Positions 45,354-64,000 of a stretch of 64,000 nucleotides of DNA are shown piece by piece. Below the pieces are notes generated by a model that did no database searches, was not told the DNA's origin, and saw only the letters and a program-made list of their open reading frames with translations. Position 1 is the first letter of the stretch. Each line of letters opens with the position of its first letter. This DNA is from Sphaerochaeta sp. Lineage in GTDB: Bacteria > Spirochaetota > Spirochaetia > Sphaerochaetales > Sphaerochaetaceae. The position numbers were made by a program, and so were the translations under genes. The stretch is taken from contig JAKVPA010000010.1 in NCBI GenBank assembly GCA_022482495.1, forward strand, positions 1 through 64,000, given 5' to 3'.

Positions 45354-48069
45354 ATGTCGGATAAAACACAGTACGTGTACTTCTTCGGGAACGGAAAGGC
45401 GGACGGTACGGCGCAGATGCGCGACATCCTCGGGGGCAAAGGCGCTAACCTCGCCGAAATGACCAGCATCGGGCTTCCCGTCCCTCCAGGATTCACCATC
45501 AGCGCTGAGGTTTGCCAGTACTTCAACGACCACAAAGGGGGCTACCCCGACGGACTCCGCGAAGAGGTGATGAAGAACCTGAAGAAACTTGAGACCGTCA
45601 TGGGAAAGAAATTCGGGGACAAGAAAGATCCCCTGTTGGTTTCGGTGCGCAGCGGCGCCGCCCAGTCCATGCCGGGCATGATGGATACCATCCTGAACCT
45701 GGGATTGAATCCGGACACGGTTTCCGGCATGATCGCCAAAACGAACAATGAGCGGTTTGTCTGGGACAGCTATCGCAGATTCATCCAGATGTTCGGTGAT
45801 GTGGTGATGGGTGTTCCCCACAGCGAGTTCGAGAGCGCGCTGCAGGACGTGAAGGACGAGAACCACAAGACGTACGATATTGAGCTGGACAGCGCCAACC
45901 TGCAGGAAGTCATCGCACGGTACAAGCGGATCTACCGCCGGTATACCGGAGAGGATTTTCCCCACCGATCCGATCGACCAGCTGTTCAAGGCGATCAACG
46001 CCGTGTTTCGCAGCTGGAACAACGAACGGGCCATCAAGTACCGCCAGATGTATGACATCCGCGGTTTGCTGGGAACGGCCGTCAACGTCCAGTCGATGGT
46101 GTTCGGAAACATGGGCGATACCAGCGGCACCGGTGTCGCGTTCACCCGTGACCCGTCCACCGGAGAGAACCGCTTCTATGGTGAGTTCCTAATGAACGCC
46201 CAGGGCGAAGACGTCGTCGCCGGCATCCGGACCCCCCAGCCGATCGAAACCCTCAAGGCGATCAACCCGGAGGTGTACGACGAATTGGTCGGCATCCGCT
46301 CCAAACTGGAGAAACATTACCACGACATGCAGGATCTGGAGTTCACCGTCCAGGAAGGCAAGCTGTACATGCTGCAGACCCGCGGTGGAAAGCGTACCAT
46401 TTTCAGCTGGCTCCGCAGCCAGGTGGAGATGGTGGAGGAAGGCTTGATCACCAAGGAGACGGCTGTCTCCCGTGTTCCTGCCGCTGAGTTCTCCAAGCTG
46501 TTCGCCCCGATCCTCGACCAGAAGATCATCCGCGATCTCTCCCTGAAGGAGATCACCCACGGATTGAACGCCTCTCCCGGTGGCGCCTGTGGCCAGGTGT
46601 ATTTCACCGCGGCAAAGGCTGAGGAAGTCGCCGCGACCGGCAAGGACGTCATTTTGGTCCGTACGGAGACCAGTCCGGAGGATATTGGTGGCATGGCCGT
46701 TTCCAAAGGCGTCATCACCTGCCGTGGTGGCATGACCAGCCACGCGGCGGTCGTCGCCCGCGGCATGGGTTGCCCCTGTGTCTCCGGTGCCAGTGAGATT
46801 CATGTCAATGAGCCGAAGAAGTATCTGGAAGTCAACGGTGTGACGGTGAAGGAAGGGGACTACATGTCCATTGACGGATTCACCGGAGCCATCTACGCCA
46901 CAAAGATTCCCGTAAAACCCAGCGAGATCGTCCAGGTTCTGGACGGCCAGATGCGGGAGAGTGAATCGGTGGTGTTCCAGAACTACAAGAAGTTCATGGG
47001 CTACGTCAATGAGCTGAAGACGATGGAAGTGTACACCAACGCCGATACGCCGAAAGACACCCACCACGCAAAACTGCTGGGTGCGGAAGGCATCGGACTG
47101 TGCCGCACCGAACACATGTTCTTTGGCGGAAACCGGATCATGTGCGTACGGAAGATGATTCTTGCCAACAACACGGTGGAGCGGAAGAAGGCGCTTGATG
47201 AGCTGCTTCCGATGCAGCGCAGTGACTTCGAGGCGATGTTCACCGAGCTGGACGGGCTTCCGTTCACCATTCGTCTGTTGGATCCTCCGCTCCATGAGTT
47301 CCTTCCCAATGACCATACCAGCCGCCATGAACTGGCGCTCCAGATGGGCATCAGCGTGGAGGAAGTGGCGCAGAAGACGGCGTCGATGCACGAGTTCAAC
47401 CCGATGCTCGGCTTCCGTGGCTGCCGGCTTGGCATCATCTATCCGGAGATCCTGCAGATGCAGGTGAGGGCCATCATCGAGGCGGCCATCAACGTGCAGA
47501 AGAAAGGCATCAAGGTGCAACCGGAGATCATGTTCCCACTGGTAGGCAACTACAAGGAATTCCTGTACTGCAAGAACAAGGCGAAGGAAGTGATCGACGA
47601 GATCTTCAACGCGACCAGCAGTCACGTCGACTATCTGATGGGTACGATGATCGAAGTACCGCGTGCCGCCATCACCGCCGACGAGATTGCCAAAGCCGGC
47701 GCCCAGTTCTTTAGCTTCGGTACCAACGACCTGACCCAGATGACCTGCGGATTCAGCCGTGATGACGCTGCTTCGTTCCTTGGACATTATGTCCAGGATC
47801 CGGACAAGCAGTTCTACGACTACGATCCGTTCGCCACGATTGACGAAGGTGGTGTGGGCAAGATGGTGAAGATCGCTGTGGAACTTGGCCGTGGCGTCAA
47901 CAAGGATCTGATCCTTGGCATCTGCGGCGAACATGGCGGGGATCCCAAGACGATTGACTTCTGCCAGCGTGTCGGCCTGGACTACGTTTCCTGCTCTCCG
48001 TTCCGCGTGCCCATCGCACGCCTTGCGGCGGCGCAGGCGGCCATCAACGCTCGTCAGAAAGCGAAATAA
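45354..48069 (+). pseudogene. ppdK: pyruvate phosphate dikinase, one-base frameshift
   Basis: Interconverts pyruvate + ATP + Pi and phosphoenolpyruvate + AMP + PPi. The first frame (45354-45960) carries GGKGANLAEMTSIGLPVPPGFTIS and SVRSGAAQSMPGMMDTILNLG. The rest (about 45961-48069) carries the catalytic-His motif CRGGMTSHAAVVARGMGCPCVSG and the PEP-binding end FGTNDLTQM...GICGEHGGDP. The break is at a CCCC run (45960-45963): with three C the protein reads GEDFPTDPIDQLF and is about 904 aa, a normal length. A consensus error is at least as likely as a true mutation. Confidence 0.93.
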
Positions 48070-52508: not shown

Positions 52509-53707
52509 TCAGCGGACGAATTTCCCGTTCACCATGATGGGGATCTCCCTGCCATCCATCCGGATGGCGGTGATGGTCATATCCGAGGATCCCACCATGA
52601 AATCCACATGCATCAGGCTCTTGTTGCACCCTTCCTTGTACGGGTCCTTGGACCCGACAAGGCAGTTGGGATAGCCCGCGCCGAGGGCCAGGTGGCACGA
52701 CGCGTTCTCATCGTACAGCCCGCTTGCGAACAGCAGGCCGCTTTTCCCAATGGGATTGGTTTCCTCCACCAGGGCGCATTCACCCAGATGCCGGGTTCCT
52801 TCATCGATGGCGAAGTAGCGGTCCATGGCTTCTTGTCCCCGTTTTGCTGTGCAGAATACGACAGCCCCTTCGTGGAACTGCAGGGTGACTTCCTCGGTCA
52901 TTTCGTCCAGGACGGAGACCGGTTTTGTCGTCGTCACATATCCTTCAGCGAGATTACGATTCGGAGTGGTGAACAACTCTTCTGTTGGAATGTTGGGCAG
53001 AAACCTTCTTCCGTCCGGCAGGACGGAATCCCCACCAAGAAACCTACTGGTCGGACACAGTCCGACGACCAGGTCGGTCCTGGGGCTCTGGTAGTGAAGT
53101 TTGATGATGCCCAGGGCGTTCAGCATCCGGGCGTGTTCCTGCATCTTCACGCAGGCGTCCTTTCCAGGCCTTCGTCGGGTTGGGTGAATCCAAAAGCAGA
53201 ATCGGAGTGAGCGTTTCCCATAATTCTTCTTCCGTATGATCTTTTCCCAGAACTGTGTTCGGCCCAGCGCGGCGTGGGCGCGGCGATGACGCACCAGGGG
53301 AGGGAGTCCACCATGAACCGGTCATGGATGGCATGGTGGAACGAACGGGCAGCTTTGCGGTACCGTTGGTTCTTCGCTTGGTCCAGCTGCACCTGTTTCA
53401 GACGGTCGTCGATCGGCTCGATCTGAATGTACGCCCATTCCTCCGTACAAATCTGGTAGTCCAGGATTTTTTCGAAATCAGGGAAGGTGGCGAGCTCTTT
53501 GTCACTCTGGTTCTTCAGCCGGGAGGCGAGGATCTCGTTGTCTGAGATCACAATGTGGACGTACCCCGCCTTGTGGCGATAGGCGCTCTTGGCCAGGGCG
53601 CGCGCCATTGGGTAGGTCGCCTCATCGCAATTGACCAAAAGGTTCTGGCCTTTCTTCAGGTTCACACCCGCTTCAATGACCAGGTCGGCGTAGCGATCGA
53701 TGATCAT
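52509..53707 (-). pseudogene. M29 family aminopeptidase, two frameshifts
   Basis: The gene reads MIIDRYADLVIEAGVNLKKGQNL...LPWCVIAAPTPRWAE, shifts near 53251-53260 into VLGKDHTEEELWETLTPILLLDSPNPTKAW, and shifts again near 53158-53163 into DACVKMQEHARMLNAL...LMHVDFMVG. Each break is an extra base; removing both gives about 398 aa, the M29 (aminopeptidase T, PepS, AmpS) length. The C-terminal half contains the metal-ligand stretch AVVFCTAKRG...HLGECALVEETNPI. It is a paralogue of the intact M29 gene upstream, with ATGA overlap. Confidence 0.85.
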
Positions 53708-54903
53708 GTCGCTTCCTCCTCACTGAACACCCCTTCATCGACCAGAATGTGCCGGGTTCCGTCCGGATCCACCGCGGTGACGGAAAGGCTTCGGGATCCC
53801 ATCGGAACATCCATTCTTACCAGAGACTGGTTGAGGTGGAGGGATGCAAGCTCTTCTTCGGTGATATGACGGGACAGCGTGTCCAGAGCGAATCCTCCGA
53901 ACCCCACATGGGTGGTCATCGCCTTGTTGAACAGGGGATGGACGCCACGGGAGAGGTGCCGGCTTTCCAACGTATCCTCGTCGGCGAGTGACAGCTCGCT
54001 GAGTACCCGCGCCCCGTCATCGATGGTGAAGAACGCGTCCAGCGCTTCAGCGCCTTTCTCTGCGGACCAAGCAATGGCTTTGCCGTCCTTCAACGTGAAC
54101 GAGGCGCCTACAACCTGTTTGCCCAGAAGCAAAAACGGGCGGGTGCTCGCCAACGTCCCGTTGGCTGATGTTCCGTCGATCGTCGCATACAAATGTTGGA
54201 CGGGAAGGGTGCTGTAGAACGTACGGTTGCTGCTGGTACGCTGTTCCCCTCCGGTCCATTCGGTGGCTTTGGCCAATGCGCAGGTGAAACTCCAGCCGTC
54301 TCCCACCACTTCCAGTTTCTCCGGTTTGATGGCATTCAGTCGTTTCTTCCGGTAGGCGAGCATCAGTCCCTGGTCTTCCCAGAACCGGTCAGGATCCTTG
54401 GTGTCCAACCGATACAGGGCGGTGAACAGATTCCACAGGTCGTCCTCCGTCGCCGTTTCCCCCAAATACTGCAAGCCCCAGTTGGCTCCAGGATAGGGGA
54501 TGTTCGCCCAGGGGTAGGCGAGTCTCCGGTCCAGCTCCACCGGTTCGGCAAGCAAGCCGAATTTTCCCAGTTGCACCACATCCTTTGCAATATCTACAGG
54601 GCTTTCCTCGCTGTAGTACGGGCAGTCGTCAAGATCGACGATGTGGCACATCACCAGTCCGGTCGTTTTCGGCCGGAGGGCTTCGTTTTCCTTGGGTTCG
54701 ATCGGATAGACCTGCTTGATGCGTCCCTTTTCCGTCTCGACGATCTGCACCGCCTGGATGGTCACTTCCGCGGCCAGTTTGCCCAAAAGTCGTGCGAATT
54801 CGATGGTGGAGCTTTCCGTGTTGATGGAAAGCGCCTCACCACGCCGTAACTGGAGCTGGCGTTTGATGACGAGCTCCGCATATTTCATTTCCCTTTGATC
54901 CAT
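53704..54903 (-). CDS. M29 family metallo-aminopeptidase
   Basis: 399 aa, full length. N-terminal RAEL-type (MKYAELVIKRQLQLRRGEAL) start; WANIPYPGANWGLQYLG, RVLSELSLADEDT, HPLFNKAMTTHVGFGGFA and LNQSLVRMDVPMGS carry the family's Glu/His/Asp metal ligands. A cytoplasmic peptidase that removes N-terminal residues. The start is set to MDQREMKY; a shorter start at MKYAEL (54888) is possible. Confidence 0.88.
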   Translation of the reverse strand: MDQREMKYAELVIKRQLQLRRGEALSINTESSTIEFARLLGKLAAEVTIQAVQIVETEKGRIKQVYPIEPKENEALRPKTTGLVMCHIVDLDDCPYYSEESPVDIAKDVVQLGKFGLLAEPVELDRRLAYPWANIPYPGANWGLQYLGETATEDDLWNLFTALYRLDTKDPDRFWEDQGLMLAYRKKRLNAIKPEKLEVVGDGWSFTCALAKATEWTGGEQRTSSNRTFYSTLPVQHLYATIDGTSANGTLASTRPFLLLGKQVVGASFTLKDGKAIAWSAEKGAEALDAFFTIDDGARVLSELSLADEDTLESRHLSRGVHPLFNKAMTTHVGFGGFALDTLSRHITEEELASLHLNQSLVRMDVPMGSRSLSVTAVDPDGTRHILVDEGVFSEEEAT

Positions 54904-54911
54904 ACCACGCA

Positions 54912-54940
54912 ATCATAGTCGATTCATTCCCGACGGACAA
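54912..54940 (-). promoter_or_regulatory. promoter of the M29 peptidase operon (near-leaderless)
   Basis: Minus strand TTGTCC (54940-54935), 17-base spacer, TATGAT (54917-54912). Only eight bases separate the -10 from the ATG at 54903, and no SD is present. Confidence 0.5.
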
Positions 54941-55268: not shown

Positions 55269-55376
55269 AAAAAAGAGCCACATTTCTGTGACTCTCAACG
55301 CCTGAGCGTTGTCAGTTGCCTGACGGGAAAGCTTCCGCTTTGTTTTAACGAAGTAAGGTAATACTTCATTGATGTC
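55269..55376 (-). ncRNA. tracrRNA of the type II-A CRISPR system
   Basis: Read on the minus strand: an anti-repeat (55375-55342) complementary to nearly all of the CRISPR repeat with small bulges, the nexus hairpin AAAGC-GGAA-GCTTT, two further hairpins (GTCA/TGAC and CAACGC/GCGTTG), and a terminator stem GAGYCACA/TGTGRCTC followed by six T at 55274-55269. Length about 108 nt. The crRNA is read from the plus strand, so this anti-repeat is on the correct strand. Confidence 0.9.
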
Positions 55377-55382
55377 ATCTTT

Positions 55383-55412
55383 AGTATATGCACGCTTGTA
55401 AGGAGGAGTCAA
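55383..55412 (-). promoter_or_regulatory. tracrRNA promoter overlapping cas9 ribosome binding site
   Basis: Minus strand TTGACT (55412-55407), 18-base spacer, TATACT (55388-55383), start near 55376, exactly at the anti-repeat. The spacer contains the plus-strand AAGGAGG that serves cas9, whose ATG is at 55416. Confidence 0.75.
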
Positions 55413-55415
55413 GTC

Positions 55416-58400
55416 ATGAAAAAGAGCAAGGATGTGGAATCGTACGCAATTGGATGCGATATGGGTACTGGCTCGTTTGGGTGGTGTGTCACAGATGAAA
55501 ATGGTGAATTGGTTTCTTTTCGCCATCAACCGATGTGGGGCGTGCGTTTGTTTGAAACAGGGAAGACCGCTGAAGAACGGAGACAGTTCCGCTCTACGCG
55601 GAGAAGACTTGCCCGACGTGTCCAGCGACTCCAATGGCTGCGTGATCTTCTTGGGTCGGAAGTAGAGAAGGTGGATCCTGATTTTTTCAAGCGTTTGCAG
55701 TATTCCTCTGTTTCGCCTCATGATTCCCAATGGGAAGCCCTGCGTGAGCTTTTTGCGAGTGATGGATATTGTTCCAATCTCTATGAGAAAAAATATCCTA
55801 CCATTTACCATCTGCGGAAAGCGCTCGCAGAAGAAACACAGAAAGCGGATTTCCGACTGATTTACCTGGCAATCCATCACATCATCAAATACCGGGGGAA
55901 TTTTTTACATGAAGGGGAAATGCAGATTCATGGAGGAGTTGACCTGAAAAGTTCCGTCTCTGCATTACTTTCTTTGGTAATCGATGGAGATACGGAAATA
56001 TCTGAAGCAGTTTCTTCCATCACTGATACACTAAAAGATGAAAAGAAATCCGCTTTTGACAAACAAAAAGTGATTCAGATCGCACTTCAATCCGTAACGG
56101 ATGATCAAGACAAGAAGTTCTGCGCAGAGTTATCAAAAGCCATCCTTGGCCGGAGTGCCGATTATACCCAAATATTCCCAACGTTGGGAGAAAAGAAAAT
56201 ATCTGTTTCATTGGATGACGAAGCAGCTTGTGAACAATTCTCAGAGAATTTGGGGGATACTGAACTGGAAGTGTTCCAGGTGTTGCAAAAACTTTATGCA
56301 GACTATACGCTCGCGATGCTTCTTTCAGGCAACGTATCAACGATCTCTGATGTGTATATCAATCGATACAACCAGCATGCGCAAGATTTACGTACGTTGA
56401 AACGTATTGTTCGTGCAAAGTGCCCCCATGAAACGTATCATGATCTCTTCAATGGCAAGCAATCATGGTATGAACGGTATCGGCTGAACAACAGCAAGGA
56501 TTCTTCGTACGATAATTTGATTAAATCAATCAAGAAAATCCTTGAATCCATTGAGAATTCCGTACATGATGATGATGTTTCATATTGCATGAAACGGATT
56601 GAAGAAGGAGAGTTCCTCAAAAAACCCAAAAGCAGTGAGAATGGCGCAATTCCCAACCAGTTGCATTGTGAGGAACTGAAAGCGATTCTTGATCACCAAA
56701 AAAGATTCTATCCCGTTTTGGCTGAAAATGAACAGAAACTGCTTCAGATAGCCTCATATCGTATCCCATACTACGTCGGACCGTTGTCACCTCAGGCTAC
56801 AAAATATGGGTGGGCTCAACGAAAAGAACAGGGACCTGTCACACCATGGAATTTTACCGACAAGATAGATGTCATGGCTTCGGCGGAGCGTTTTATCACG
56901 CAGAGAACGGATACCTGCCAATTCCTCTATGGCGAACCAGTTTTGCCAAAGAATTCTTTGTTGTATGGCGAATACTGTGTGTTGAACGAATTGAATGGGA
57001 TTCGTCTTGATGGAAAACGGCTGAGTGTCGATGTAAAACAACAGATCTTCCATGAGTTGTTCCAGACGCAGAAAACAGTCACAAAAGGAACTTTGAGCAA
57101 ATGGTTGTACGAACATCGGTATGCCTCACATGAGAAGGGCCTGGACCTGACCGGATTCCAGAAAGAGGACGAATTTGCATCAAATCTTTCTTCCTGGATT
57201 GACTTCTCTCGTATTTTTGGTGGTATCCGGGAACAAGACAAGGAGATGATCGAAAACCTTATTCTTTGGAACACACTGTTTACGGATAAAAAAATACTGA
57301 AAGCGAAAATTCGAAAGAGTTACCCAACCTTGGCTGATCCGACGGTCGTAGCTATCTGCAGATTGAATTACCAAGGGTGGGGCAGATTATCCCAAAAACT
57401 CCTGACGGGCATTTCTACGTTGGATGCCCAAGGAAGGGTTTGGACCGTCATGGATTTGCTTTGGGAAACCAATCAACTCTTTATGGAAATCATTTTTGAT
57501 GAGACCTATGGTTTCCAACAAAAAATCGAAACAGCAAACAAACAGAACAAGCCGGAAACATCATTGAATGCATATGATACTGCTTTCCCTGATGTTCCTA
57601 TGTCTCCTTCGGTAAAGAAATCGGCTTGGCAAGGATTACAGGTGATTCGTGAGATTGTGCAGGTGATGGGGAAGGAACCAAAACGTATCTATGTGGAATT
57701 TACCCGAGGTGATGAAGAGAAAAAACGCACGATAAGCCGGTATTATGCACTTGAGAAGATTTATAAACGACTGAAGGATGACCCGTCCTTTGAAAAGGTA
57801 TATGAAGAACTGACATCAAGAAAAGAAGAGTACAAGAAACAAAACGGGCCATTGAAGATTATGCGATTGTACCTCTATTTCTTACAGAATGGGAAATGTA
57901 TGTATTCTGGACAGACTTTGGATATTCAACGTTTGGGTGATTACCAGATCGATCATATTCTTCCGCAAGCGTACATCAAAAACAACAGCATCGATAACTT
58001 GGTATTGGTGAAATCCAAGGAAAACCAACGAAAACGAGATTCTTTGCTTTTGGATGATACTATCATCACAAAGCAAAAACCCTTCTGGAAAACGTTACGG
58101 AAAAACGGGTTGATCTCTTCAAAGAAATTCCATGCGCTGATCAGAGAAGAGGTTTCTGAGAATGATTACATTGGATTTATCAATCGACAAATTGTCGAGA
58201 CAAGCCAAGCGGTCAAGATCCTGAGTGATGTGCTGAAGGAGGCGTTTCCGACAACAACCGTAATGGGGATCAAAGCAGGGCTTGTCTCATGATTTTCGTG
58301 CTCAAAATGGGTTGTACAAGGTTCGTGAGGTCAATGACTATCATCATGCACATGATGCCTTGCTTGCCTGCCAGGTTGGGAGGTTTCTTGCTGGTCCTTT

Positions 58401-59388
58401 CGGACAAATGATAAAGAACAAGGAAGCCTTCATTGATTTTCAAAATGCTCTTCAAGATGATACATCCAATGCGCGAGACGAAAAATATGGGTTTGTCATT
58501 CATTGCATGAGCAGAGAATATGGTTCATGGCATGGATATGCCGTTGTTGAATACTTGAGGAAAGTGTTTGGATATCATCATTACTTCCTCTCAAGGAAAA
58601 CGGAAGAAATGCGAGGTGCGTTCTACAATCAAATGTTGATGCCAAAAGGAGAAAAGGGTGGAGCAACCGTTCCTTCAAAAGAAGGAAAAGATTTTGTGGT
58701 GTACGGTGGTTATTCTGGAGAAAATCTCGCGCATTTTGATATCATTGAATATTCCAAAGGAAAGAAGCGATATCGCAAGCTTGTAGGAATTCCCATCCGC
58801 ATCATAGCTTTGGAAGAAACGCAAAAAGGTGCGGTAACCCGATACCTATCATCGCTGTATAAAGATCCTGTGGTCATCAAAGCGGGAATCCGAAAGTATC
58901 AATACATCAGATACCCTGAAAAAGATGGTTCATTGAATGAGTTTTATATTGTTAGTGATGGGGAGGTGATCAACGCTCGCGAACTCATCCTTTCTCAAGA
59001 CACCATAGCCCATCTTGCTCTGTTTGATCGTCTTGAAGTGATAGAAAAACAAAAACTGTTTGGAGAATTGTGTGACAAGATGAAGAAGTATCCCTGTTAC
59101 AGAGGAATTGCTGAAAATCTTCTCCTTCATGTAGGCGATTTTGGTGAAATGAATTCGTTACAACAGAAGAAATGCATTCAAGGGATTTTGGTTTATATGC
59201 AGGCAAATTCTTCGAGATTTGATTTTGGGAAAGAATTCGGAGCCTCTTGGAAGAATGTTTCCAGCAATCGGTTGATCAAATCACTTGATCCCAACCAAAT
59301 TGAATTTATCGATCACTCAGTAACAGGAATGTATGAGAGGAGATACCATCTTGGGCTTTCGAACCGTGGTGATCACAAAACATGTTAA
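55416..59388 (+). pseudogene. cas9: Cas9 endonuclease (type II-A), one-base frameshift before RuvC-III
   Basis: Joined length about 1323 aa. RuvC-I YAIGCDMGTGSFGW with Asp15; arginine-rich bridge helix RRQFRSTRRRLARRVQRL (about 56-75); REC lobe to about 740; RuvC-II RIYVEFTRGDE with Glu761; HNH YQIDHILPQAY with His847; RuvC-III REVNDYHHAHDA with His977 and Asp980; then the PAM-interacting C-terminus. Frame one stops at 58290-58292 after GLVS; frame two goes on as DFRAQNGLYKVREV. Removing T58290 restores LVSDFR, as in other Cas9s. As written, the protein lacks RuvC-III and the PAM domain. SD AAGGAGG. It overlaps cas1. Confidence 0.93.
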
Positions 59389-60223
59389 GTGTTATTACAA
59401 GAATGATTACCTGGTAGTGCAGGGCGATACTCAGAAGATGGTACATCTTTCTGAGATTGATGCGGTAATATTTGACACTACGGCAATGACCGTCACCGGG
59501 GTTATCCTGACCGAATTGGTCAAGTGGAAAATCGCCGTAGTGTTTTGTGATGAGCGTCATATTCCCTCTTGTTACTTATTGCCTCTTACGGCCAATTTCA
59601 TTTCAACAAAACGAATATTTGCTCAAATGCAATGGGATGAGAAAAGAAAAGATTACCTTTGGGGGGTAATCGTGAAATACAAGATTGAAAAGCAGGCGTT
59701 CGTGTTGCAAAAGAAGCATTTGGAAGCCGAAAAACAGGTAAGTTCTTACGGAATGGCCGTCCAGGACGGAGATGTAACGAATAGGGAGGCTTTTGCCGCG
59801 AAAGTGTATTTTAATGCGCTCTTTGGAAAAGACTTTTCTCGCGATGGTGACAGTTCGTTGAACGCCATGTTAAACTACGGGTATTCCATTTTGGTTTCTT
59901 TGATCACCAAAGAGGTTGTGGCTGCTGGGTATCTTCCTCAAATAGGGATCCATCATTGCAGTGAATATAATCCATACAATCTTGTTTGTGATCTTATGGA
60001 GCCTTTTCGTCCTATTGTGGATGATGTGGTTTTTGAAAACAGAGCGCAGGGAAAACTTACTCTTCTTGTAAAAGAACAATTTTGGGGAATGTTGCAGATG
60101 CAGTTTGTATATGGAGGTGCGTTGAGATACTTATCAACGATTTTGCACCTGTATGTCCATGAATGTATGGCTTTTCTCGAGAATGGAGAAGTCAAGGAAC
60201 TTTTGATGTACGAGAAGATATGA
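59351..60223 (+). CDS. cas1: CRISPR adaptation integrase Cas1
   Basis: 290 aa, the type II-A length. MGFRTVVITKHVKCYYKNDYLVVQ is the usual N-terminus; the TTG start at 59351 has GAGGAG eight bases before it, while an in-frame ATG at 59333 would add six residues. FVLQKKHLEAEK and the metal-binding Glu...His...Asp set (near NREAFAAKVYF, IHHCSEYNPYNLVCDLMEPFRPIVD) are visible. Works with Cas2, Csn2 and Cas9 in spacer acquisition. It overlaps the cas9 3' end. Confidence 0.93.
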   Translation: MGFRTVVITKHVKCYYKNDYLVVQGDTQKMVHLSEIDAVIFDTTAMTVTGVILTELVKWKIAVVFCDERHIPSCYLLPLTANFISTKRIFAQMQWDEKRKDYLWGVIVKYKIEKQAFVLQKKHLEAEKQVSSYGMAVQDGDVTNREAFAAKVYFNALFGKDFSRDGDSSLNAMLNYGYSILVSLITKEVVAAGYLPQIGIHHCSEYNPYNLVCDLMEPFRPIVDDVVFENRAQGKLTLLVKEQFWGMLQMQFVYGGALRYLSTILHLYVHECMAFLENGEVKELLMYEKI

Positions 60224-60540
60224 GCAGCCAGATTATGAGATTACTTGTGTTTTTTGATTTGCCGGTTCTTACAGCCAAGAATCGGCATGATTACTCCCAA
60301 TTTAGGAAATTCTTGATCAAAGAAGGGTATTTGCAGATGCAAGAATCCGTCTATTCAAAAATTGTACTCAGTCAAACGACAGAGGAACTTGAAAGAGCAA
60401 AACTCGAAAAAAAGCTTCCTCCGAAAGGATTGGTACAGTTGCTTGTGGTGACAGAAAAACAATATGCTTCAATTCAATTTCTGGTTGGCAGCAAAGAGCA
60501 TGATGAAATTGATTCTACCAGTAGGTTGGTTATCTTATGA
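60220..60540 (+). CDS. cas2: CRISPR adaptation protein Cas2
   Basis: 106 aa. IMRLLVFFDLPVLTAKNRHDYSQFRKFLIKEGYLQMQESVYSK is the ferredoxin-like first strand with its Asp, and the C-terminus has the Val-Thr-Glu-Lys-Gln-Tyr segment common in type II. ATGA overlaps join it to cas1 and csn2. It bridges two Cas1 dimers in the integration complex. Confidence 0.93.
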   Translation: MSSQIMRLLVFFDLPVLTAKNRHDYSQFRKFLIKEGYLQMQESVYSKIVLSQTTEELERAKLEKKLPPKGLVQLLVVTEKQYASIQFLVGSKEHDEIDSTSRLVIL

Positions 60541-61280
60541 TTACAGCCAGTTTTCCCCAGCTTGAGAAATCTATTATCATTGATCCTATTACAACTATAG
60601 ATTTTACGAACCCTTCAATGTTTGCTTCTTTCATTACTTGCTTGAATGCGAACCTGCTTGGGTTTGGTGAAGAAGATGAGATTCGTTTGTTTGATGAGCA
60701 TGACAAGCAGATACCTCTTTCTGGGCTTTTGTTCGTATATGATGTATTGACGTTTGATTTCAACGCTCGCCCAATAACTACTGCTATTCAGAAAAACTTG
60801 CAAAAACGAGTAAGCGAAGAGGCAGAGTCATGGGAACCAATGAGATTGGAATTACAGAAATTAGATGATGCTATGAATAATTTTCTCCTTGATGATCCTC
60901 TTGAATTGGAAGTCGATGATGAATGGGACATCAATAGACTCTGCAAGGTGTATGGAGTGAAATTGAAGTGTGATCCTTTATTGTCATGCCTTGAGCGTGC
61001 GGAGAAGATAATTGAAGTTACCAATACTCTTCATTTGGCTCATTTGATTGTATTTAAGAATCTCTCCCGGATATTTTCGGAATTGGAAAGGAAGCAACTC
61101 TATTTATTCGCACTGAATGAAACTGTTCCATTGCTTGTTTTGGAGTCCGGAGAAATCAAATCGAATGAGTTGGAAACTGTCATCCAGATTGATGCCGATT
61201 ATTATGAAAAAGAGTTGCCAAAAACCCCTCTAAAAAACGATAAATCTGAAAAACTTGACTTCATTGAGGTTTTAGAGTAA
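60537..61280 (+). CDS. csn2: Csn2 family adaptation protein (type II-A)
   Basis: 247 aa. Low similarity but recognisable: the C-terminal HLIVFKNLSRIFSELERKQLYLFALNETVPLLVLES (about 165-200) matches the Csn2 conserved region, and a middle helical lid is at about 80-135. Csn2 forms DNA-end-binding rings needed for spacer acquisition and defines subtype II-A. The last four codons (GTT TTA GAG TAA) are the first twelve bases of the first CRISPR repeat. Confidence 0.82.
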   Translation: MITASFPQLEKSIIIDPITTIDFTNPSMFASFITCLNANLLGFGEEDEIRLFDEHDKQIPLSGLLFVYDVLTFDFNARPITTAIQKNLQKRVSEEAESWEPMRLELQKLDDAMNNFLLDDPLELEVDDEWDINRLCKVYGVKLKCDPLLSCLERAEKIIEVTNTLHLAHLIVFKNLSRIFSELERKQLYLFALNETVPLLVLESGEIKSNELETVIQIDADYYEKELPKTPLKNDKSEKLDFIEVLE

Positions 61281-63356
61281 GGTAATTCTTGATTGATGTC
61301 GAACAAGGCTCAGGTGGAACGCATCAACAAGCGGGTTTTAGAGTAAGGTAATTCTTGATTGATGTCGAACTCATTTCTCAAGACCCTTGCAGTCGGTGTC
61401 GTTTTAGAGTAAGGTAATTCTTGATTGATGTCGAACCGAGCTTTGCACTCGCTATGAGCCTGTCGTGTTTTAGAGTAAGGTAATTCTTGATTGATGTCGA
61501 ACAATCCTCACTATTGAGATATGTTCCGGCATGTTTTAGAGTAAGGTAATTCTTGATTGATGTCGAACTTGCCTTTATCTCTTCAATCTTTGCGGAGAGT
61601 TTTAGAGTAAGGTAATTCTTGATTGATGTCGAACAGACGATTTTCTGATGTGGAACGGTATTCTGTTTTAGAGTAAGGTAATTCTTGATTGATGTCGAAC
61701 TCGATGGGGATGAATATGTTCGGCAGCCGGGTTTTAGAGTAAGGTAATTCTTGATTGATGTCGAACCGAGCTTCTTGACTCCCGTCACTCCAACGTGTTT
61801 TAGAGTAAGGTAATTCTTGATTGATGTCGAACGATAGAGAAAATCAAGGAGGAGTTGAAAAAGTTTTAGAGTAAGGTAATTCTTGATTGATGTCGAACCA
61901 GTTTCAATCGCGTGAAAAGCTACTCTCAGTTTTAGAGTAAGGTAATTCTTGATTGATGTCGAACTTATGCGATAAGTGATGGCGATGTTACATGCGTTTT
62001 AGAGTAAGGTAATTCTTGATTGATGTCGAACGGATAGTAATATTACTTTGCTATCACGCCAGTTTTAGAGTAAGGTAATTCTTGATTGATGTCGAACAGC
62101 GTAAATATTATTCAAGAGAGGGAGAAAGTTTTAGAGTAAGGTAATTCTTGATTGATGTCGAACTAAAATTTTACTACAGAGGAGAAAAGATTAGTTTTAG
62201 AGTAAGGTAATTCTTGATTGATGTCGAACTTTTGGTTTTCCGATCGGTGTGAAACCTGCGTTTTAGAGTAAGGTAATTCTTGATTGATGTCGAACTGTCC
62301 AACATCCATTGCTTGCCAATTCCCTGTTTTAGAGTAAGGTAATTCTTGATTGATGTCGAACTCCGCTCCGCCGTAAGAAGCGTCAATGTGAGTTTTAGAG
62401 TAAGGTAATTCTTGATTGATGTCGAACTATACCAGGAGCTTCAGAACATTCGTACCAGTTTTAGAGTAAGGTAATTCTTGATTGATGTCGAACTATCTCG
62501 TTGTAGTGGTTCTGTACATGTGTGTTTTAGAGTAAGGTAATTCTTGATTGATGTCGAACAATAATGGCGAGACACAACAAACAGATTACGTTTTAGAGTA
62601 AGGTAATTCTTGATTGATGTCGAACAGCAGACGAAGTGCATGTGTGCGGCAATGTGTTTTAGAGTAAGGTAATTCTTGATTGATGTCGAACTGAATACGA
62701 CGTTTTAGCAGACTATGGCTAGTTTTAGAGTAAGGTAATTCTTGATTGATGTCGAACCGTTGCTTGCAATACCCGAAAACTTGGCGGGTTTTAGAGTAAG
62801 GTAATTCTTGATTGATGTCGAACCGAAAACAGTGTGCATGTGATGAATGACAAGTTTTAGAGTAAGGTAATTCTTGATTGATGTCGAACTCGGGAACGAA
62901 TTGTATCAAGATTGTATCAGTTTTAGAGTAAGGTAATTCTTGATTGATGTCGAACTTGGGCTGTCCGTACTTGGCTATCTCGGCTGTTTTAGAGTAAGGT
63001 AATTCTTGATTGATGTCGAACCTCAAGTCTGACATCAGGAAAGCGTTATCGGTTTTAGAGTAAGGTAATTCTTGATTGATGTCGAACCAGGACTCCCTTG
63101 TGACCGTCTCCAAGTCTGTTTTAGAGTAAGGTAATTCTTGATTGATGTCGAACTGAGGCAGGAGCCGAGCCGAGCTTGTCGGTAACATGTTTTAGAGTAA
63201 GGTAATTCTTGATTGATGTCGAACAAAACACGCATATTCTTTCCTGCATAGTGAGTTTTAGAGTAAGGTAATTCTTGATTGATGTCGAACCGTTTTTTCG
63301 TCCACCGGTACAACATTAATGTTTTAGAGTAAGGTAATTCTTGATTGATGTCGAAC
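61269..63356 (+). CRISPR. type II-A CRISPR array, 32 repeats, 31 spacers
   Basis: The 36-base repeat starts GTTTTAGAGTAAGG and ends GATTGATGTCGAAC; all 32 copies look identical, including the last. Spacers are 30 bases, except spacer 11 (31 bases, 61965-61995) and spacer 29 (35 bases, 63154-63188). The repeat starts GTTTTAGAG as in other type II-A systems, and the tracrRNA anti-repeat fixes transcription on the plus strand. There is no intergenic leader: the first repeat begins inside csn2, preceded by CATTGAG. Confidence 0.98.
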
Positions 63357-63403
63357 TGCAAGGTGAACTGCCAGTCAATGTTAACTTCCTAAAAAAGTAA
63401 ACC
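63357..63403. other. junction between CRISPR array and IS element
   Basis: Forty-seven bases after the last repeat, AT-rich, with a weak hairpin GTTAACTT/AAGTAAAC near 63380-63402. It probably contains the end of the insertion sequence, but I cannot place the terminal inverted repeat without its partner. Confidence 0.4.
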
Positions 63404-63616
63404 TCAAAGCTCAATGAACCTCAGGATTTCATCAAAAGACTTACCTTTTTTTGCCATTGCCTTAAGCAAAATATCTGCTTGAATTCTGTTTCTTTCTTCA
63501 AGCAAAGCCTTCAGTTCACTGCAGGCTGTTTCATATTCAAGTTTGGTACTTTGCACCTTCTGTTCTGCTTTTTGAATTTTCTCTTCTATGGGTATGTTTT
63601 TCTTAGGTCTTGCCAT
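63404..63616 (-). CDS. small coiled-coil protein downstream of transposase
   Basis: 70 aa, MARPKKNIPIEEKIQKAEQK... with a basic AT-hook-like start and a long charged helix. Its ATG shares bases with the transposase stop (TAATG), so the two are translationally coupled and it is probably an IS accessory protein. The role is unknown. Confidence 0.6.
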   Translation of the reverse strand: MARPKKNIPIEEKIQKAEQKVQSTKLEYETACSELKALLEERNRIQADILLKAMAKKGKSFDEILRFIEL

Positions 63617-64000
63617 TAGATTGCCTCCTTTTCTCTGAGCTGTTTGCTGATTGCAATAGATAATTGCTTTACCATGTCTGCATCAAGTCCAAAGCATTTA
63701 AGGATATCTTTCTGTTTCTTTGTCACAGCATGATCAAGCCGGTAGATACCATCATAATCACGGCTCATCTCTATCTTCTCCAGCTCACGAATCGCAGCCG
63801 GCACAGTTGCATAGTTTGGTTTCGCCACCACATCCTTAAAAGTGTCTTTGATGTATGTGTACAAACGGCATCTTATGATAAGTGCCACAAACTCAATGAG
63901 TATCTTGGAGGTTGTGGATCTGTCTGAATACACTCTCATGGATTTGTTTCCAAGATAGGATTTGTCTCCTCTGAAGAGCTTTTCATTCTCATCACGGGAT
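63616..64000 (-). mobile_element. IS transposase C-terminus (IS4/IS1634-like), cut by window end
   Basis: The frame is open through the window end. It reads ENEKLFRGDKSYLGNKSMRVYSDRS...SKILIEFVALIIRCRLYTYIKD, the C-terminal part of DDE transposases of the IS1634/IS4 type (YxGN..FRVHSD...FIEF.ALI). An ATG at 63939 is internal. Catalytic residues lie outside the window. Confidence 0.75.

Follow-up and report, generated by a model that had tools for sequence, protein, structure and literature searches.

The window, that is, the whole stretch of 64,000 nucleotides of Sphaerochaeta sp. that was analysed, carries a CRISPR-Cas locus of type II-A in which cas9, cas1, cas2 and csn2 lie in one operon, cas9 being frameshifted in the assembly. 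Besides this gene content, the locus has the other features of the class: a tracrRNA with an anti-repeat near cas9, an array located 3' of csn2, a leader on the csn2 side and a degenerate distal repeat. The elements of the locus are the following:

55273-55383, minus strand: tracrRNA, with the anti-repeat at 55342-55380, a promoter-like TTGACT-18-TATACT (55412-55383) and a terminator hairpin (55296-55273)
55416-59388, plus strand: cas9, with a +1 frameshift at about 58285-58292 (open reading frames 55416-58292 and 58282-59388)
59333-60223, plus strand: cas1 of type II (TIGR03639, E=1e-84)
60163-60540, plus strand: cas2 (TIGR01573, E=4e-16)
60537-61280, plus strand: csn2, 247 amino acids, with a conserved core to about residue 226-230 and a putatively leader-derived C-terminal extension after it
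61216-61268, plus strand: leader, translated as C-terminal codons of Csn2, with the 3' end CTTGACTTCATTGAG; its last 16 nt match the intergenic leader of the relative L051
61269-61304, plus strand: repeat 1, GTTTTAGAGTAAGGTAATTCTTGATTGATGTCGAAC, whose nucleotides 1-12 supply csn2 with its last three codons and its stop
61269-63356, plus strand: CRISPR array, 32 identical repeats of 36 nt and spacers of 30 nt with two exceptions
63617-64000 (start), minus strand: IS elements interrupting the array, the remainder of which lies on contig C1:2206-2307

The identity of Csn2 is given by family models (PF09711, E=1e-16; TIGR01866, E=2e-26). The first open reading frame of cas9 encodes the REC and HNH regions, and the second one the end of RuvC and the PAM-interacting domain; an extra base near 58289 (GTCTCA T GATTTT) falls between the HNH region and RuvC-III. 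This split looks like either a broken gene or an assembly error. Robust spacer acquisition in type II-A systems requires Cas9 (PMC6895254), so a genuine frameshift would probably make the system incapable of acquiring spacers at present.

Of 2540 windows compared in the region, the anti-repeat of the tracrRNA gives the best pairing with the repeat (nucleotides 1-33, -36.6 kcal/mol), and the orientation of this pairing implies that crRNAs are read from the plus strand of the array. No family was matched in an Rfam search of the tracrRNA/CRISPR region. The two off-length spacers, of 31 and 35 nt, are located at 61965-61995 and 63154-63188; comparison of the spacers with a phage collection gave no matches, and the repeat was not found in viral contigs. 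A cluster of apparent IS elements breaks up the array (63357-64000, contig C10 as far as 68227, and C1:1-2307), with transposase reading frames that by eye resemble the IS4, IS256 and IS21 types.

Overlap of csn2 with the first repeat and polarity of the array

The csn2 reading frame ends ...GAC TTC ATT GAG GTT TTA GAG TAA, and its stop codon (61278-61280) is formed by nucleotides 10-12 of repeat 1. The original prediction, according to which the closing GTT TTA GAG TAA is the first 12 nt of repeat 1 and no intergenic leader exists, is exact in the sequence: the csn2 frame runs into repeat 1 and there is no gap between them. As sequenced, this overlap is correct. The repeat contains stop codons in all three frames, so a csn2 gene without a stop of its own must end in repeat 1 in any frame. 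Across 61 distinct 36-nt repeats surveyed, 21 are closed in the three frames and 136 of the 183 frames contain a stop. A stop supplied by the repeat is therefore nearly forced and needs no special explanation, and the idea of a striking coincidence was dropped for this reason. The informative feature is the missing stop and leader gap, rather than the fact that the repeat provides the stop.

A degenerate terminal repeat is the mark of the old end of an array. The other genomic copies of the repeat are found only at C1:2206-2307, adjoining another IS end, and the last of them is degenerate in its 3' part (GATGTTAATA in place of GATGTCGAAC). The array is unassembled between contigs C10 and C1, and the uniqueness of the repeat points to their being joined. 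Because the degenerate repeat occurs only at the end distal to csn2, the csn2 side is the leader side, as it is in other type II-A systems, in agreement with the predicted insertion of spacers at the csn2 end; the orientation of the tracrRNA also fits transcription of the plus strand. It is scarcely credible that the leader really lies at the 63.4 kb end and that the csn2-proximal repeat is the old one. This arrangement could be argued from the absence of intergenic space after csn2 and from the repeat at 63321-63356, which is still perfect, but the true distal end is found beyond the IS elements, where the last repeat is degenerate, and both the tracrRNA orientation and all the relatives place the leader next to csn2. 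Given a csn2-side leader, the further claim that each new repeat preserves the csn2 terminus follows from the known mechanism of insertion at the junction.

Recurrence of the fusion in other type II-A loci

The original prediction named relatives as the place to look for the same fusion. No close relative shares it, but a fusion of this kind, rare yet recurrent, is found in a member of the same family but another genus (L045, from genome G005) and in four Eggerthellaceae species. Among the 77 type II-A loci surveyed, which come from spirochaetes, Bacillota, Actinomycetota and other groups, the csn2 stop lies 16-241 nt before repeat 1 in 73 loci, and the two overlap in four (the window, L045, L100 and L108). 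A family-wide search of the Eggerthellaceae gave 26 loci with arrays, 22 unfused and four fused in the same frame (L137, which is L100; L138, which is L108; L139; and L156; all from Adlercreutzia sp. and relatives). Survey and search together comprise six fused genomes in at least three lineages, a distribution indicating that the fusion arose at least three times: in the window, in L045 and in the Eggerthellaceae.

As in the window, the csn2 frame of the fused Eggerthellaceae crosses the leader and meets its stop within repeat 1, but there the stop is TGA at repeat nucleotides 21-23 instead of TAA at nucleotides 10-12, and the frame is another one. These loci differ from the window in their separate origin, in the conservation of the layout over four species and in a strong pairing between leader and repeat 1. 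Their sister loci contain homologous leader DNA that is not translated. The csn2 tree of the family neither supports nor rejects a single origin of the four fused species. One unfused member, L142, has its csn2 stop within the leader, at a distance of 16 nt from repeat 1, which is intermediate between the free and fused layouts. In L045 the csn2 stop (TGA) is also within repeat 1, although it occupies nucleotides 4-6, the leader ends ATTTGAG and the leader-repeat hairpin is stronger than that of the window; the sister genomes L046 and L047 have leaders of 48 and 26 nt. At about 8730-8790 of L045 (csn2 on the plus strand) the start of repeat 1, TTTGAGTAGT, has an inverted counterpart in the translated leader, ACTACTCAAGGATTTGAG. 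The fused relatives L045, L100 and L108 show the same array polarity as the window; in L100 and L108, the two Eggerthellaceae loci checked for it, only the far-end repeat is degenerate.

Most relatives of the window have an intergenic leader of 26-130 nt (overall range 16-130 nt), and the nearest related system, G023, whose Cas1 is 49-58% identical, has an ordinary one of 51 nt. The cas1 gene of the latter is present in two separated pieces (G023:C81:709-4153), so this locus is decayed. No close relatives of the window's system were found in searches of the family, class and phylum or in a scan of genome contigs (best Cas9 about 40%). Since the relatives have ordinary leaders, the fused layout is derived in the window's lineage. 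Homologous csn2 genes ending before an ordinary leader, which the original prediction had set against the fusion, thus do exist; they date the change and leave the fusion standing.

Related to this, the type II-A systems of S. thermophilus CRISPR1 and S. pyogenes share with the window the gene order, the tracrRNA and a same-strand array 3' of csn2 (PMC5382924, PMC6895254), as well as a leader end ...TTGAG beside a GTTTTAGAG repeat and the same array polarity. Their leader, however, is a separate intergenic element, whereas in the window the end of csn2 serves as leader and the stop comes from repeat 1. The leaders of 167 type II-A loci have been taken from the region 3' of csn2 (PMC5382924). 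No published description of a csn2-repeat overlap was found in the open-access literature, and the loss of a stop codon through a compact leader is probably a variant of the known type II-A arrangement for which we found no earlier description.

The leader as the translated end of csn2

The match of Csn2 to TIGR01866 spans residues 6-224 of 247, and the tail that remains corresponds to the intergenic leaders of relatives, which bears out the claim that the leader lies within csn2. When 43 Csn2 proteins are aligned, the unfused members end a few residues past a conserved IDxD motif, whereas the Csn2 of the window continues for about 20 residues, an extension confined to the fused proteins. The last 16 nt of the leader match the intergenic leader of the relative L051 at 14 of 16 positions, which no csn2-internal window equals, and the extra codons stand where most relatives of the same family have a leader of 26-58 nt. 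The simplest reading of these comparisons is that the last ~20 codons of csn2 are a former leader, translated because the usual stop was lost. The bases before repeat 1, CATTGAG, agree at only five of seven positions with the published ATTTGAG and retain the GAG/GTTT junction; Group 1 type II-A leaders have an ATTTGAG/GTTT junction (PMC5382924), and a TTGAG leader end is common to most relatives of the same phylum. In S. thermophilus, integration into the type II-A array is directed by 10 bp of leader (PMC6895254), so a leader of the size found in the window would suffice in principle.

The original prediction also placed the leader under double constraint and proposed comparing synonymous sites at the csn2 end. 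This was done in the four fused Eggerthellaceae as a stand-in for the window, which has no close relative. Of the third positions, 6 of 15 are variable in the leader, whereas in the csn2 core 199 of 227 are (Fisher P=5e-5), and the leader differences are evenly spread over codon positions 1, 2 and 3 (22/15/19). What is conserved in the translated leader of these species is the nucleic acid, DNA or RNA, and nothing points to added constraint on the protein. The double constraint is hence borne out in the four fused Eggerthellaceae but not demonstrable in the window's own genome.

The same data bear on another possibility, a very improbable one: that the extension serves Csn2 as a functional domain under selection for its protein sequence, its overlap with leader and repeat being incidental. 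The tail is charged and AlphaFold2 gives a weak helix at 236-246. Nevertheless, pLDDT exceeds 90 as far as about residue 230 but averages 73 and then 58 over the two final blocks, the extension is absent from every unfused Csn2 of the alignment, and the even spread over codon positions in the Eggerthellaceae tails is the pattern of DNA constraint and not of protein constraint. The ~20 residues that the former leader adds lie outside the Csn2 fold and are probably tolerated as a dispensable tail.

The leader could also act as RNA. In the accounts of Liao et al. 2022 given in PMC13187072 and PMC12080349, type II-A leader RNA pairs with repeat 1, blocking extraneous crRNA and favouring the newest spacer. 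The window resembles the leader RNA so described in having a stretch before the repeat able to pair with repeat 1:

61210-61300, plus strand: candidate leader-repeat 1 hairpin, in which AAGAGUUGCC (61210-61219) pairs with GGUAAUUCUU, and CUCUAAAA with UUUUAGAG of repeat 1

It differs from those accounts in that the pairing stretch consists of csn2 codons, and support for the pairing is weak in the window (P 0.05-0.17). The predicted pairing has an energy of -17.5 kcal/mol; dinucleotide shuffling gives P=0.047 and synonymous shuffling 0.17. Although the csn2 codons around 61210-61235 pair with repeat 1 better than all 200 csn2 windows compared, the hairpin of the window is suggestive only. In the Eggerthellaceae, each leader pairs with its own repeat more strongly than in swapped combinations (0 of 5000 permutations as strong), and the fused members retain this pairing. 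The leaders of this family (L137-L166) carry an inverted copy of the repeat, degenerate in sequence, and where the repeat changes this copy changes too, so that the leader-repeat 1 hairpin appears to covary.

Possible sequencing error, proposed origin and meaning of the fusion

The fusion in the window's organism rests on one assembly, with probable homopolymer indels in the vicinity. It could be an artefact in which a one-base homopolymer error at 61207-61237 conceals a real csn2 end at about residue 231-235 and an ordinary leader of 28-37 nt. Taking one base out of a run of A or C at 61207-61228 would bring the end to residue 231, a typical Csn2 length, and one-base changes in the runs at 61207-61253 mostly restore an ordinary end at residue 231-240. 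Besides, the gene for pyruvate phosphate dikinase (PPDK), located 15 kb away, has at 45956-45963 one base more in a TTTTCCCC run than both congeners, apparently through a recent mutation or an error of the assembly in the homopolymer, cas9 also carries a +1, and a neighbouring aminopeptidase paralogue is split too. On the other hand, PPDK is the single such frameshift in a comparison with congeners across 41 kb of conserved coding sequence. For homopolymer runs of 4 or more, of which the window has 858, this amounts to roughly 0.2-0.4% per run, or about 1% for the relevant runs, against about 5% of truly fused type II-A loci. For this reason an artefact is unlikely, though not negligible, and this genome quite likely contains a true fusion; in the organism itself the fusion is probably real. 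As the Eggerthellaceae fusions share one frame in four species, they are not errors of this kind, and the phenomenon is independent of the window's genome. The split gene, aminopeptidase-like, lies in several frames at 52509-53719 on the minus strand and adjoins an intact paralogue at 53704-54912.

The overlap, the array polarity, the likeness of the tail to intergenic leaders and the recurrence in other lineages make likely the following explanation as a whole. In a type II-A locus of the order tracrRNA/cas9-cas1-cas2-csn2/array, csn2 would have lost its ordinary stop, and translation would cross the former leader of ~40-50 nt and halt at the first stop, within repeat 1. The leader would keep its role as DNA, its last ~10 bp and the start of repeat 1 being the expected recognition site of Cas1-Cas2. 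New spacers would enter at the leader-repeat junction, where duplication of the repeat would recreate the same csn2 end. We infer both this use of the csn2-internal leader as integration site and the co-transcription of cas genes and array, the cas mRNA and the pre-crRNA being probably one continuous transcript; a promoter search within csn2 gave one weak site, not above the number given by shuffled sequences. Pairing of the tracrRNA at repeat 1 would cover the csn2 stop codon. The fusion originally proposed is therefore retained as regards the leader inside csn2, but it is a derived layout, with extra codons outside the Csn2 fold and a nearly forced stop.

A further step, which is speculative and rather doubtful, would give the ~50-nt stretch of the fused loci three functions at once: Csn2 codons, landing site of Cas1-Cas2 and leader RNA arm masking repeat 1. 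Ribosomes ending csn2 would then melt the hairpin and occupy the part of the repeat that pairs with the tracrRNA, so that Csn2 synthesis and first-repeat processing would control each other. If this coupling were true, extraneous crRNA and the priority of the newest spacer would be tied to Csn2 synthesis.

In more general terms, a CRISPR leader can be coding, with the site of spacer insertion inside a cas gene, and such a site would stay correctly copied because the duplicated repeat restores the gene end. Fused loci would be missed by leader annotation starting from the csn2 stop codon. These natural fusions may offer a ready test of the minimal type II-A leader and of the effect of translation on the handling of the first repeat.
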